This document shows, in pieces, positions 57,227-64,000 of a DNA stretch of 64,000 nt (its first letter is position 1; every line of letters begins with the position of its first letter). Source of the DNA: Pirellulales bacterium (lineage in GTDB: Bacteria > Planctomycetota > Planctomycetia > Pirellulales > JAEUIK01). The stretch covers positions 1 to 64,000 of the forward strand of contig JAIESQ010000073.1 in the NCBI GenBank assembly GCA_019745975.1. The letters are read 5' to 3'. The notes under the pieces were generated by a model. It saw nothing but the letters and a program-made list of their open reading frames with translations, was not told where the DNA came from and ran no database searches. A program made the translations under genes and the position numbers.

Positions 57227-58129
57227 TTAGCGGCGGTATCCCGGTCGCGGGCCAAAATGTCCGCGCGACACGGCAAGCTCGCCCGACAAGCTGCCGACGC
57301 TCACGGTCGTCCCCGCGGCGATCGCGGCCGCCGTGTCCGCGGGTAACTGCACTTCGTCGTCGGTGGGGTCGGTCGAAAACACGACCTTGCCGGCGCCGTT
57401 GGAGTCGGTCGTTAGCTGGCCGATTACCGTGCTGCCGACCGTAACATCCAAAACGCTGTCGGCCGCCATGCCCGTCACCTTGACGATCAGCTCGGTCTCG
57501 GTGGCGAACGTGCGCACGCCGGCCAACCCATGGGCGGACGCGTTGCTCGCATCCGTCAGGACGGCTGCGAGTCCGCCGGCCTGCCCAGTCGCACAGGTTA
57601 GCGGCTGCTTGGTAAGCGCGCCGCTCATCGGGCCAACCGCGACGGCCGTGCCGACTGCCACGTCGGTCGGAAAGTCGTCAGGGAGCGATTGCTCGTCTCC
57701 GCGCGGATTGTTTGCGAGCACGAGCTTGCCGACGCCACTGGTATCGGTCGTGATCTGGCCGACGACCGTGTCGCCCAAGGTAACGTCGAGCGTCGCGTTT
57801 GGTTCGGCCCCCCGAACGATCACGGCGAACCGCGTGTGATCGCCGACCGAGTGATACGACACCGTGGCGCTTGCGCCGGTCGTGTCGTCGCTCAACTGAG
57901 TGCCGAGTAACGTCGCTTGCGCGGCAACTGGCGCAGCACTCGGGGCGGAGAATGACGGGCCGCGGCCGCCAAGTCCCGTGGCAACCAGCGGCGGAGGTCC
58001 GCCCGGCGGCGGCTGGTGCGACAAACCAGCCGGACCGGCTCCAAAGCCATGGGCCGACAGCAGGCTGCGATCTTCGAGCATTTCCAAGCGTCGCGCTAGA
58101 GAGGCCAGAACGTGAGGGCGCAGTGACAT
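57227..58129 (-). CDS. Exported two-repeat beta protein with LEDRSLLSA-type signature
   Basis: The ATG at 58129 gives 300 residues. The N-terminus 'LARRLEMLEDRSLLSAHG' is the LE-x-LEDR-x-LLSA signature found at the start of many large exported planctomycete proteins. After a Pro/Gly linker there are two tandem copies of one beta domain of about 80-95 residues: 'TLDVTLGDTVVGQITTDTSG...GKLVL' and 'VLDVTVGSTVIGQLTTDSNG...GKVVF' (fragments). Each ends near 'AVGPMSGAL' and 'SVGSLSGEL'. Internal duplication is therefore clear. Adhesion or surface location is an inference only. Confidence 0.78.
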   Translation of the reverse strand: MSLRPHVLASLARRLEMLEDRSLLSAHGFGAGPAGLSHQPPPGGPPPLVATGLGGRGPSFSAPSAAPVAAQATLLGTQLSDDTTGASATVSYHSVGDHTRFAVIVRGAEPNATLDVTLGDTVVGQITTDTSGVGKLVLANNPRGDEQSLPDDFPTDVAVGTAVAVGPMSGALTKQPLTCATGQAGGLAAVLTDASNASAHGLAGVRTFATETELIVKVTGMAADSVLDVTVGSTVIGQLTTDSNGAGKVVFSTDPTDDEVQLPADTAAAIAAGTTVSVGSLSGELAVSRGHFGPRPGYRR

Positions 58130-58541
58130 CGAGTAGTTCCTCCCAGGAATCCTCAACCGCCCAGCGGGTAGAGCCCCCCCACCGAGCATGACTGGCCTCG
58201 CGGAGCCGGCCACGATGGGATTGCAGTTCCGGCGGCTTGTGAAGCCATGCAATCCGAAGAGCTGGGCCGTTCCCCATAGCTCCTAGTAACGCCCCGCCCT
58301 AGAAACCGCCGCGCAATTTGCAAAAAACTGGAAATCGTCACTTCGTGCGCTACAGATCGAAAAGAAGAGCCGTGCCGAAAGACTATTCGGTCCCTTCGCG
58401 GCGGGTTGTGCCGGTTTCGGTTACCCTTGAAGTGGGGGCAACCCGAACATGCACTTTCCGCAAGGCAAGATTTGCACGGCCTGCGCCCAACGCTTGTTGC
58501 CGCCAGGGTAAGACCTCCGCGACCTCACTTGGCACCGCATC
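58130..58541. other. Intergenic region upstream of the sigma factor-kinase operon
   Basis: This 412-base gap separates divergent genes. Frames run through it without protein-like features. It must carry the promoter of the sigma factor gene; an ECF-type -35 (AAC) was not found with confidence. An A-rich stretch TGCAAAAAACTGGAAA occurs near 58319. Confidence 0.45.
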
Positions 58542-59177
58542 ATGAATCGTTGCAGCGTGGACGATAGCACGTGTCGACTCTCGCCCGAGCAACTGCTCGA
58601 GCTTGCCCAGCGTGGCGATCAGGCAGCGCTCGGCTCGCTGTTGTCGATGTACCGTCGTTACCTGGCGCTGTTGGCCCGGGCGCAGATCAATCGCCGCTTG
58701 CAGGGAAAGGTCGACGCGTCGGACCTCGCCCAGGAAACGCTCCTCGAAGCGCATCGGCACTTCGGCATCTTCCGCGGGACAAGCGAAGCCGCCTTCGCCG
58801 CCTGGTTGCGAAACATATTGGCCGGTCTGGTGGCTAATCACGTGCGTCGCTTTCTGGGGACGCAGTGCCGCGACGCCCGGCTGGAGCGCTCGCTGGCTGT
58901 GGAAATCGACAACACCTCGTGCGCGATCGGCCGCGGCGTGGCCGCCGCGATCCCCACGCCGAGCGAGCAAGCAGTCAAGCGCGAGGCCTCGCGGCTGTTG
59001 GCCGATGCCTTGGAACTGCTGCCGGAACATTACCGGCAAGTGATTCTGCTGCGGCACATCGACGAACTGTCGTTTGCCGAGGTCGCGGCGCAAATGGGGC
59101 GCAGCGTCGATAGCGTCGAAAAACTCTGGGTACGAGCGCTCGGTCGTTTGCGCAAGTCGCTGGGAGCAGGACGATGA
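58542..59177 (+). CDS. ECF-type sigma-70 family RNA polymerase sigma factor
   Basis: A 211-residue sigma factor with two domains. Region 2: 'LLELAQRGDQAALGSLLSMY' and 'DLAQETLLEAHRHFGIFRG' fit the core-binding and -10 recognition helices. Region 4: 'LLPEHYRQVILLRHIDELSF' and 'VAAQMGRSVDSVEKLWVRAL' is the -35 helix-turn-helix. It starts with a Cys-containing N-terminus. Its stop overlaps the start of the kinase gene (ATGA), so both are made together. The pairing with a Ser/Thr kinase is common in planctomycetes and suggests that the kinase controls the sigma factor. No anti-sigma factor is present. Confidence 0.93.
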   Translation: MNRCSVDDSTCRLSPEQLLELAQRGDQAALGSLLSMYRRYLALLARAQINRRLQGKVDASDLAQETLLEAHRHFGIFRGTSEAAFAAWLRNILAGLVANHVRRFLGTQCRDARLERSLAVEIDNTSCAIGRGVAAAIPTPSEQAVKREASRLLADALELLPEHYRQVILLRHIDELSFAEVAAQMGRSVDSVEKLWVRALGRLRKSLGAGR

Positions 59178-62100
59178 GCATGACACGCCTGGGTTCATCA
59201 CGAGCCGCCGTACACGAGGCTTCCACCAGCGACGATCCTCGCCTGGTGCGCGCCGTGCGCGAGTATCAGGCTGCACTCGAGCAGGGCGCGCCACCGCCAC
59301 GCGATGAGTTTGTTGCTCGGTATCAGGAGATTGCGGCCGAGCTGGCCGAATGCCTCGACGCGCTCGAACTGGTGCACGTTGCCGCAGGTGGGATGCGTTC
59401 CCAAGCTAAAACCGTCACGACTTCGCCGGCCGACTCCTCCGAACATCAGTTGCCGCTCGGCGACTTTCGTATTGTCCGCGAGCTGGGCCGCGGCGGCATG
59501 GGAGTCGTCTACGAAGCCGTGCAGCTTTCACTCGGCCGCCGCGTGGCCCTGAAGGTGCTGCCGCTGGCCGCAGCCTTCGATGCCGTGCACCTCGAGCGTT
59601 TCAAGAACGAAGCCCACGCCGCTGCCCGGCTACACCACTCGAACATCGTCCCGGTGCATGCGGTGGGAAGCGAACGCGGTCTGCATTACTACGCGATGCA
59701 ACTGATCGATGGCTGTTCGCTGGCGACGGTCATCGAGCAACTGCGCATGGCTGCCGGGAAGCCGGCCCGCTGCGAACAAGCGACCAGTGTCTGGAGGCAT
59801 CGCAGCTCCGAGGCGACTGGCGCGGCACGGGACGCCGCGAAACGGCTGGGCACCGACGACAACACCTTGCGCTACCGGCCGGCCGCGGCTGGTGACGCTC
59901 TGGCGGCAAGCTCGATCGATGGTGATCCTCCATTGCCAGGCACGCCACCGTTTCCGGCCGCCGAAATCGACACATTAGGCATGGTCGGGCCGACGACCGT
60001 GCTGAGCGCGGCGCGCGGCGACACGGTACGTTATCAGCGGACCGTCGTCGGACTGATCCGGCAAGCCGCCTTGGCGCTAGCGCACGCCCATCAGTTCGGC
60101 GTGGTGCACCGCGACATCAAGCCGGCGAATCTGCTCCTGGACGCGCGCGGCAATTTGTGGGTAACCGACTTTGGGCTGGCCCAGTTGCAGACGGCCGGGC
60201 AGCTCACGCAAACGGGTGACATGCTGGGCACGCTGCGCTACATGAGCCCCGAGCAAGCGGCCGGCGACCGCGTGCTCTTGGATCATCGTACCGACATTTA
60301 TTCGCTCGGCGTTACGCTCTACGAATTGTTGACACTCGAGCCGGCGTTTGCCGACAGCCAGCGACAAGTCCTATTGCGTAAGATCATCGAGGACGATCCC
60401 CCCGCGCCGCGCGCACACGACGCCAAGATACCGCGCGAGCTCGAAACGATTGTTCTCAAGACCATCGCCAAGTCGCCGGCCGATCGTTATGCGACGGCGG
60501 AAGCCCTGGCCGACGATCTCCAGCGCTGGCTGGACGATCAACCGATCGTGGCCCGTCGCCCCACGCTGTTGGAACGTGCGGCCCGCTGGCGGCGGCGCCA
60601 TCGCGGTGTGATGCGCGCCGCAGTTGGGTTTCTGTTGCTGGCACTATTGGGCTTGCTGGTCAGCACCTTGCTGATCGCCCGCGAACACGCCGATACCAAG
60701 GCCGCCTTCGATCGCGAGATTCAGCAACGCGCGGCTGCCGAGGAGAGTTTTCGCCAGGCGCGAGCGGCAGTCGACGACTTTGCCCAGCTCGGCGAACAAG
60801 AGCTGGCCAATATGCCATCGATGCTCGGGTTGCGGCGGCGGATGCTCGAAACGGCGCTGGCCTACTATCAGAGCTTTCTCGAGCAGCGTGAAGACGATCC
60901 CACGATCCGCGCCGAGCTGGCGGCGACTTCTACTCGCGTCGCGCGAATGGTCGACGAACTAGCGCTGATCGAGGCATTCGCGCCGCTGATGCTGCTTAGC
61001 GAGGAAGCGGTGCAAGAAGAACTTGGCCTGAGCGACGAACAGATCGCGAAGATCGAGGCCGCGTTTTCCGCCTTGGATTCGGCCATTGATGAAGCGGAAA
61101 ATGATCTCGACGAGTCGGCCGACACCAGCGAGTTTTCTGGCCAAGCGCAGCTTGCCGGCGCCCGCGATACGATCGTGGCCCAGCTCGAACCGCAGCAGAA
61201 GTCGCGGCTCGATCAACTCGCCTTGCAGCAGCGCGGACCGTTTGCCTTTCGTGATCCAGCAGTCGTCAAGGCACTCCAGTTGACCGACGAACAACGCGAG
61301 CAGATCGCGAAGATCATCGAAGAAGAACGACCGCGCGGCCCCGGCCGCCCAGGGCATGGTCCGCGACGCGGGCAGTTCGATGGTCGCGGGGGCCCAGGTC
61401 GACCCGAGCTGCCGCGCGCGAATCCGGCGCCCGACGGCCCGCCAGGCGAAGCGCCGGGACTGGCGGATCCGGCAGCGCGACGTCGCCGACCTCGTGGCGC
61501 GCAACGCTTCGACGAGCGCCGCCGTGGCGATGGGCCGCGCGACTTCGACGGGCCACCACCTCCAGATCGCCCTGATGGTCCGCCGCATGAAGACGGTTCA
61601 CCTCCTCCAGACGGTAACCCGCGCCCGGATGGGCCCAGGGGTTTCGATGGTCCAGGACCCGACGGGCCACCGCCTCCGGATGGTCCGCGGCATCCTGTAG
61701 GCCAGCGTCCGGATGGCCCTCCTGACTTCGATGGTCCGTCGCCACTGGGCGGACCGCGTCCTGACGGACTACCGCATCCTGATGGTCCGCCACGACGTGG
61801 CGGTCCTCGGCGCCCGCCGGGCCCGCCAGGCGACGATTCGCAAGACTTCGATCAACCGCCGCCACTCGAGGGTCCTCCGCCAGACTGGGATGAGGGATTC
61901 GGGCCGGAACCTCGCGGCGACGGTGAGCGGCCGCACCGCGACTTCGCGCCGCACGGTCGCCGACCAGGGCCGCCAGGTGATGGCCCTCGGCCGCAGCGTG
62001 GGGACGGTCAGCCACCCGGCGAACCGCGCCCCGATGGACCACACGGTGGTCCGCCGCATGGCCCCGGCGAGCGCGGACCGCACGGTCGCGGACACGATCC

Positions 62101-62227
62101 CGACCAGCGGACGATCGAGCGCATCATGGAGGTGCTTACGCCCGAGCAGCGCGAAATCTGGAAGTCGATGATCGGCGAACCGCTGGACATGGGGCAATTC
62201 GGCCCACCGGATCACGGCCCCTTCTAG
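59174..62227 (+). CDS. Membrane Ser/Thr kinase with LTxxQ-like motifs and a long Pro/Gly/Asp-rich tail
   Basis: A 1017-residue protein. The kinase domain spans about 97-460: 'LGRGGMGVVYEA', Lys127 in 'VALKVL', 'VHRDIKPANL' with Asp314, and DFG at 332-334. An insert of about 95 residues (190-285) sits inside the domain, before the catalytic loop. A membrane helix ('AAVGFLLLALLGLLVSTLLI', near 483-502) puts the rest outside the cytoplasm. That part has helices with 'LGLSDEQIAKIEAAF' and 'LQLTDEQREQIAKIIEE', then a tail of about 255 residues rich in Pro, Gly, Asp and Arg, then 'EVLTPEQREIWKSMIG' at the very end. The tail could sense the envelope. It is coupled to the sigma factor. Confidence 0.9.
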   Translation: MSMTRLGSSRAAVHEASTSDDPRLVRAVREYQAALEQGAPPPRDEFVARYQEIAAELAECLDALELVHVAAGGMRSQAKTVTTSPADSSEHQLPLGDFRIVRELGRGGMGVVYEAVQLSLGRRVALKVLPLAAAFDAVHLERFKNEAHAAARLHHSNIVPVHAVGSERGLHYYAMQLIDGCSLATVIEQLRMAAGKPARCEQATSVWRHRSSEATGAARDAAKRLGTDDNTLRYRPAAAGDALAASSIDGDPPLPGTPPFPAAEIDTLGMVGPTTVLSAARGDTVRYQRTVVGLIRQAALALAHAHQFGVVHRDIKPANLLLDARGNLWVTDFGLAQLQTAGQLTQTGDMLGTLRYMSPEQAAGDRVLLDHRTDIYSLGVTLYELLTLEPAFADSQRQVLLRKIIEDDPPAPRAHDAKIPRELETIVLKTIAKSPADRYATAEALADDLQRWLDDQPIVARRPTLLERAARWRRRHRGVMRAAVGFLLLALLGLLVSTLLIAREHADTKAAFDREIQQRAAAEESFRQARAAVDDFAQLGEQELANMPSMLGLRRRMLETALAYYQSFLEQREDDPTIRAELAATSTRVARMVDELALIEAFAPLMLLSEEAVQEELGLSDEQIAKIEAAFSALDSAIDEAENDLDESADTSEFSGQAQLAGARDTIVAQLEPQQKSRLDQLALQQRGPFAFRDPAVVKALQLTDEQREQIAKIIEEERPRGPGRPGHGPRRGQFDGRGGPGRPELPRANPAPDGPPGEAPGLADPAARRRRPRGAQRFDERRRGDGPRDFDGPPPPDRPDGPPHEDGSPPPDGNPRPDGPRGFDGPGPDGPPPPDGPRHPVGQRPDGPPDFDGPSPLGGPRPDGLPHPDGPPRRGGPRRPPGPPGDDSQDFDQPPPLEGPPPDWDEGFGPEPRGDGERPHRDFAPHGRRPGPPGDGPRPQRGDGQPPGEPRPDGPHGGPPHGPGERGPHGRGHDPDQRTIERIMEVLTPEQREIWKSMIGEPLDMGQFGPPDHGPF

Positions 62228-62582: not shown

Positions 62583-64000
62583 ATGCAAGGTTGGTGGATC
62601 GCCGACAGTGAGGCGCCCAGCGTCGATCCGGGCGAGATTGCCCGCGCGATTGGTAGCGTCAACGAATCGCTGGTGCTGGTCGACGCGGGCGGGTACCTCG
62701 GTGTGGCGCGTGGCGGGACAAGTCTGTTTCGCGCCGCGCCCCCCGACGTGCCGGCCTATCGCATCGTGGCCTTCCTGCCGGAGACGCGCCTGGAGAGCCT
62801 CGGCGATCCGACCTTCTGCGCCGACCATGGCTTGCGCTATCCCTATGTCACGGGTGCCATGGCTAACGGCATCGGTTCGGCCGCCATCGTCGAGGCGATG
62901 GGGCAGGTCGGCATGCTGGGCTTCTTCGGCTCGGCGGGCTTGCCGGTCGACCGCGTCGAGCGCGAGATCGATCACATCCAGGCCACGCTCGGCGCGCGAC
63001 CCTACGGCATTAACCTGATTAACAACCCCGGCGAGCCGGACCTCGAGAACGCGATCGTCGATCTCTACCTGCGCAAAGGCGTGCGGTTGATCGAAGCTTC
63101 GGCGTTCCTGGCGCTCAGCTTGCCGCTGGTACGCTATCGCACGCATGGCATTCACCGCGACGCCAACGGGCGGATCGTTACGCCCAACCAGGTGATCGCC
63201 AAGGTATCGCGCGTCGAAGTGGCGACGAAGTTCTTTTCGCCTCCTCCCGACGATTTCCTGCAGAAGCTGCTGCAAGCGCGCGAGCTCACGCCGGAGCAGG
63301 TCGACCTGGCCCGGCACATCCCGGTGGCGCAGGATCTCACTGCCGAGGCCGACTCGGGGGGACACACCGACAACCGCCCTGCCATCACGATGATCCCCAC
63401 GCTGTTGGCGCTACGCGACCGGCTGCAGCAGCAGTTCGGCTATCAGCAGCGGCTGCGCGTCGGCGCCGGCGGCGGCGTCGGTTCGCCGGCCGCGGTATCG
63501 GCGGCATTGGCGATGGGAGCCGCTTACGTGCTGACCGGCACGATCAACCAAGCATGCGTCGAGTCGGGCACGTCGGACGCCGTGCGGGCGATGCTCGCCC
63601 AGGCCGAGCAGGCGGACGTGGCGATGGGCCCGGCGGGCGACATGTTCGAGATGGGCGTGAAGGTGCAAGTGCTCAAGCGTGGCACGCTGTTCGCCATGCG
63701 CGGCCAGAAACTCTACGACCTGTATCGTGAGTACAACTCCATCGAAGAGATTCCCGTTTCCGAACGGACGACGCTGGAGAAGCAAATCTTCCGCATGTCG
63801 CTCGAGGAAATATGGGGGCAAACCGCCGACTACTTCCAGCGCCGCGATCCACGGCAAGTCGAGCGCGCCAGCAAGGACCCGAAGCATAAGATGGCGCTGG
63901 TCTTTCGCTGGTACCTGGGGCAATCGTCGCGTTGGGCGATCACCGGAGAGCCGACGCGCCAAGCCGACTACCAAATTTGGTGCGGGCCGGCGATCGGCTC
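62583..64000 (+). CDS. pfaD: PfaD-like polyunsaturated fatty acid/polyketide synthase enoyl reductase (cut by right edge)
   Basis: The ATG at 62583 has GAGG seven bases upstream and an in-frame stop just before it (62571). The visible 472 residues start 'QGWWIADSEAPSVDPGEIA'. They carry the FMN-binding nitronate-monooxygenase-like barrel of PfaD: 'PYVTGAMANGIGSAAIVEAM', 'GFFGSAGLPVD', 'YGINLINNPGEP', 'RVGAGGGVGSPAAVSAAL' and 'AAYVLTGTINQACVESGTS', then the PfaD-specific C-terminal region 'RRDPRQVERASKDPKHKMAL'. PfaD reduces the enoyl intermediates of PUFA or related polyketide synthases in trans. The frame is open to the edge, so about 60-100 residues are probably missing. A PfaA/HglE-type synthase is expected beyond the window. 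Confidence 0.93.
   Translation, partial: MQGWWIADSEAPSVDPGEIARAIGSVNESLVLVDAGGYLGVARGGTSLFRAAPPDVPAYRIVAFLPETRLESLGDPTFCADHGLRYPYVTGAMANGIGSAAIVEAMGQVGMLGFFGSAGLPVDRVEREIDHIQATLGARPYGINLINNPGEPDLENAIVDLYLRKGVRLIEASAFLALSLPLVRYRTHGIHRDANGRIVTPNQVIAKVSRVEVATKFFSPPPDDFLQKLLQARELTPEQVDLARHIPVAQDLTAEADSGGHTDNRPAITMIPTLLALRDRLQQQFGYQQRLRVGAGGGVGSPAAVSAALAMGAAYVLTGTINQACVESGTSDAVRAMLAQAEQADVAMGPAGDMFEMGVKVQVLKRGTLFAMRGQKLYDLYREYNSIEEIPVSERTTLEKQIFRMSLEEIWGQTADYFQRRDPRQVERASKDPKHKMALVFRWYLGQSSRWAITGEPTRQADYQIWCGPAIG

Follow-up and report, generated by a model that had tools for sequence, protein, structure and literature searches.

The window, a stretch of 64,000 nucleotides from a Pirellulales bacterium, contains two overlapping genes on its forward strand. 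The first (58542..59177, +) encodes an ECF sigma factor of 211 amino acids, recognised from its open reading frame and by profile as a member of TIGR02984 (Sig-70_plancto1; score 214.8 bits, above the cut-off of 183.75), in which region 2.2 has the motif DASD. The second (59174..62227, +) encodes a membrane Ser/Thr kinase of 1017 amino acids, and its start overlaps the sigma stop by 4 nt (ATGA). A first-pass annotation of this DNA had already described the kinase as coupled to the sigma gene, and the sigma factor and the receptor kinase are probably a translationally coupled pair. Upstream of the sigma gene, on the other strand (57227-58252, -), lies a gene for a protein with an LEDRSLLS N-terminal motif and no Pfam match; similar proteins of the LExRxLLS type flank the relatives' loci L039, L040, L044, L094 and L095. 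The kinase gene is followed by a reading frame (62583-63998, +) with FabD helical-insert and NMO matches, which has a PfaD-like look (polyunsaturated fatty acid or polyketide type).

The cytoplasmic part of the kinase is conventional. The kinase domain (about residues 98-455; 59465..60538, +) is matched by the Pkinase profile with an E-value of 1.3e-39, and its catalytic motifs are intact (GRGGMG at residue 105, VALK at 124, HRDIKPAN at 312 and TDFGLA at 331). Hydropathy gives a single strong transmembrane segment at residues about 484-502 (60623..60679, +). The standard catalytic domain and membrane helix of the first-pass annotation are thus both there, and so apparently is the tail outside the cytoplasm, because the N flank of the transmembrane segment is rich in arginine. 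The ectodomain is predicted to extend outward to residue 1017, the end of the protein. It begins with a juxtamembrane helical linker (residues 524-597; 60743..60964, +) which, by comparison with relatives, is common to kinases of the TPR type.

The unusual part of the protein comes after this linker. The first-pass annotation had reported LTxxQ-like motifs in the tail, and these are indeed present: L[ST]xxQ is found three times (residues 619, 703 and 988) where shuffles of the ectodomain give an expectation of 0.10 (p=0.0002), or 0.19 if the low-complexity part is left out (p=0.0008). An alignment of the ectodomain with its relatives shows four motifs and not three, the fourth being LEPQQ at residue 671, which was absent from the earlier list and has its second Q conserved in 47 of 48 ectodomains. 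Together, alignment, profiles and a structural model outline a first Spy-like half, here called half A (residues 606-694; 60989..61255, +), with LSDEQ at 619 and LEPQQ at 671. Half B is split: its first part (residues 696-717; 61259..61324, +) has LTDEQ at 703 and is the best Pfam LTXXQ stretch, and its second part (residues 981-1006; 62114..62191, +) has the pattern LTPEQxxxWxxxxGxPL, in which Q, W and G are the same in 48/48. When the profiles of the two halves are compared with each other, they match with a probability of 96.7 (P 3.5e-10). Judged from the protein sequences, the ectodomain is best described as an internal duplication, two Spy-like halves with two LTxxQ-like motifs each.

Composition, alignment and model all identify the stretch between the two parts of half B (residues 718-980, 263 amino acids; 61325..62113, +) as a disordered insert rich in Pro, Gly, Arg and Asp (P 29%, G 21%, R 15%, D 12.5%). 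Motifs 3 and 4 enclose it, and it occupies the position of the central part of Spy. Across 51 related kinases it measures 27 to 263 amino acids (median 67), and the version in the window is the longest. The motifs had been taken as brackets around a low-complexity tail. The motifs themselves are real, but they do not flag a tail; they are built into a tandem of Spy-like halves, and the low-complexity stretch is a variable insert within half B that in some relatives has only 27 amino acids. It is worth noting that the C-terminal motif follows the insert in frame and is conserved in all 51 kinases, so that the reading frame across the repeat must be real.

How close this domain is to Spy depends on the method that is used. 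The LTXXQ profile (PF07813; cut-off 24.3) gives 25.8 bits for the isolated ectodomain but 21.0, below the cut-off, for the complete protein, and it is matched at E<=0.01 by 23/48 relatives. The Spy model PRK10455 matches weakly (8e-5, far below its cut-off). In a search of a profile of the 48 ectodomains against the PDB, the four best matches are all Spy entries, led by E. coli Spy with an E-value of 2.2e-6; half B spans both Spy motifs there, motifs 3 and 4 aligning with the two of Spy. The window's own ectodomain, used as a single-sequence query against PDB sequences, gave no match. AlphaFold models a compact relative as all helical with a pLDDT of 92.9, and for the window protein it assigns high confidence to the helices flanking the insert (values up to 98) and mostly less than 50 to the insert itself; in both models helices begin at the LTxxQ motifs. 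Foldseek comparison of these two models with the PDB returned nothing significant, and Spy is absent among the 50 matches listed, so the link to Spy is supported by profile matches and by the order of the motifs, and not by a comparison of folds. On these grounds the ectodomain is probably related to the chaperone Spy. Like Spy and CpxP (PF07813), it has LTxxQ motifs, is predicted to be helical and to lie outside the cytoplasm, and matches Spy by profile; unlike them, it has two halves in tandem, is fused to a kinase, and has an insert in place of the central part of Spy.

Spy-like descent does not necessarily mean a Spy-like function. The tandem domain could be a helical device for pairing or spacing, with no sensing or client binding of its own, and the signal would then come from another protein. 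A predicted all-helical array next to a helical linker would suit such a role, as would the missing fold match and the fact that the module is shared by very different proteins. However, the positions that are invariant across the 48 ectodomains (Q, W and G, and also R) speak for the conservation of a particular structure or surface, and the module also exists in free exported proteins, two of them encoded directly after a kinase gene (L056 and L102). We regard a pure pairing device as rather improbable.

CnrX is a Spy/CpxP-like sensor part that controls an ECF sigma factor in a metal-responsive system, acting upstream of the sigma factor, and it is natural to ask if the ectodomain is a metal sensor of this kind. 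The C-terminal 51 amino acids do match Metal_resist (PF13801) weakly, with an E-value of 0.0065, but the score of 17.1 is below the cut-off of 29.2. In the 48 ectodomains neither His nor Cys is conserved at any column (the best reach 21% for His and 6% for Cys), and the His content of the insert varies from 0 to 15% and is not conserved. The system thus differs from CnrX in having no conserved metal ligands and in having a kinase in place of an anti-sigma factor. The metal-sensor reading is unsupported and very improbable.

Among relatives, a 124 amino acid region was matched in 37 of 58, and it was found in 12 further kinases of this first set. A profile of linker and module together found matches at E<=1e-25 in 47 of 397 genomes of the order, nearly all in kinase-sized frames; in a sample of the phylum, full-profile matches outside the order were confined to a single family of its class. 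The resulting set has 51 kinases including the one in the window, from Pirellulales and one sister family. An ECF sigma gene lies directly upstream in 47 of them, with the 4-nt overlap in 27 of these 47 pairs, so the layout of the window recurs in relatives. The four kinases outside this count are L095, which is cut by a contig end, and L044, L117 and L119, which have no adjoining sigma gene. A second collection, consisting partly of the same genomes, has 27 module kinases, 25 of them with a sigma gene. Distances among the kinases correlate with those among the sigma factors (Mantel r 0.80, equalled in 0/2000 permutations), a value to which shared species descent contributes. In a tree of kinase domains the 47 paired kinases fall on one side of a branch (support 100/99), with seven further kinases encoded in the window's genome on the other. 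A gapped-dyad search upstream of the 47 sigma genes found no shared promoter motif; counts were near those of shuffles and the patterns mostly GC-rich. With the LTXXQ match, the profile relation to Spy, the outside topology and the layout kept in relatives, none of the outcomes that the first-pass annotation had named as refuting its proposal was observed.

The module is not restricted to kinases. Exported proteins of about 210-350 amino acids with signal-peptide-like N-termini carry it too, including one of 306 amino acids in the window's own genome (L065:4973-5893, C163), which is a candidate partner or target. An M56/BlaR1-type peptidase with PD40 repeats (L048:4889-8296) has two copies, possibly another use in signalling, and two giant Secretin_N proteins (L050:4444-8568 and L052:1806-6293) have the module near the N-terminus. 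It is also found in the CotH proteins of L055 and L058. Its presence in exported, M56/BlaR1-type and CotH proteins indicates that the module is an extracytoplasmic part. Genes for CotH, VTC or DUF4956 are neighbours of 14 of the 51 pairs, variously oriented in the same direction, divergently or convergently; loci with such CotH-VTC-DUF4956 neighbours include L058, L098, L100, L106, L108, L118, L126 and L131. When longer flanks were taken, 4 of 13 CotH proteins had the module (L058, L118/L213, L126/L214 and L100/L215) and the others did not. The window's own genome has no CotH or VTC match, so this link is limited to other lineages. In Gram-positives, Pel clusters are likewise accompanied by CotH and DUF4956, together with a polyphosphate polymerase (PMC7112168).

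The usual ectodomains of planctomycete kinases are TPR and WD40 (PMC11032199). In the nearest module-less kinases the juxtamembrane linker is the same and leads into a stretch that looks like TPR repeats; an ECF gene accompanies most of these kinases as well, so the system in the window is an ectodomain swap in a known planctomycete design of ECF sigma factor and kinase. Kinase, juxtamembrane linker and upstream sigma gene are as in the pairs with TPR or WD40 kinases; the difference lies in the ectodomain, where a tandem Spy-like module interrupted by a disordered insert stands in place of TPR repeats. In a literature search made without most subscription journals and without figures, none of the papers found names this architecture.

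Activation of a neighbouring ECF sigma factor by a Hanks kinase has been demonstrated for ECF43, where, as in the window, a membrane kinase adjoins the sigma gene (EcfP-PknT and EcfK-PknS; PMC13147305, PMC8103513). EcfP has lost the acidic DAED motif, and phosphorylation restores the charge. The sigma factor in the window differs in belonging to TIGR02984 and in retaining both Asp of DAED (as DASD), and the kinase ectodomain differs as well; the EcfP/PknT switch is therefore not simply applicable, and if the kinase acts on the sigma factor, another site or target is needed. The DxxD is kept in nearly all readable sigma factors of the relatives, with mostly S or A at the third position. This retention, with S or A and not a conserved phospho-residue where the Glu was lost, would also suit a kinase that does not regulate its neighbour at all, with other phosphorylation targets and genes that are merely co-expressed, as would the three module kinases with no adjoining sigma gene. 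Pairing in 47 of 51 cases with frequent 4-nt overlap, the ECF genes adjoining the TPR relatives, and the ECF43 precedent (PMC13147305) speak against this, and we consider it unlikely.

The reading that we prefer, with a probability of roughly 0.55, is a sigma-kinase pair in which a Spy-like receptor has replaced the TPR ectodomain, and in which ligand binding acts through the kinase and the sigma factor on envelope genes. The Spy-like domain would bind an envelope ligand, which may be an exposed segment of a protein or a polymer of the envelope, and binding would alter the pairing or activity of the kinase. The kinase would then switch on its partner sigma factor, or a protein holding it, and the sigma factor would drive envelope genes, in some lineages perhaps CotH-VTC-DUF4956. 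The place of the module, its conservation and its relatives suggest envelope sensing; phosphorylation of the sigma factor by the kinase and chaperone activity of the module are steps that we only infer. A bolder version, which we put forward tentatively, is that a chaperone-like module serves as the direct receptor of a kinase controlling an ECF sigma factor, binding exposed envelope proteins or a polymer and reporting envelope stress with neither an anti-sigma factor nor a protease cascade, and that the free exported and CotH modules are competing or regulated partners.

For most of the dozens of kinases in planctomycetes the input is unknown, and here a conserved receptor domain is tied to one sigma factor. 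Module kinases are present in the cultured genera Stieleria, Roseiconus, Rhodopirellula and Aporhodopirellula, so that input and output can both be tested. If the preferred reading is true, the pair would add a case of kinase control of an ECF sigma factor without the charge switch of ECF43.
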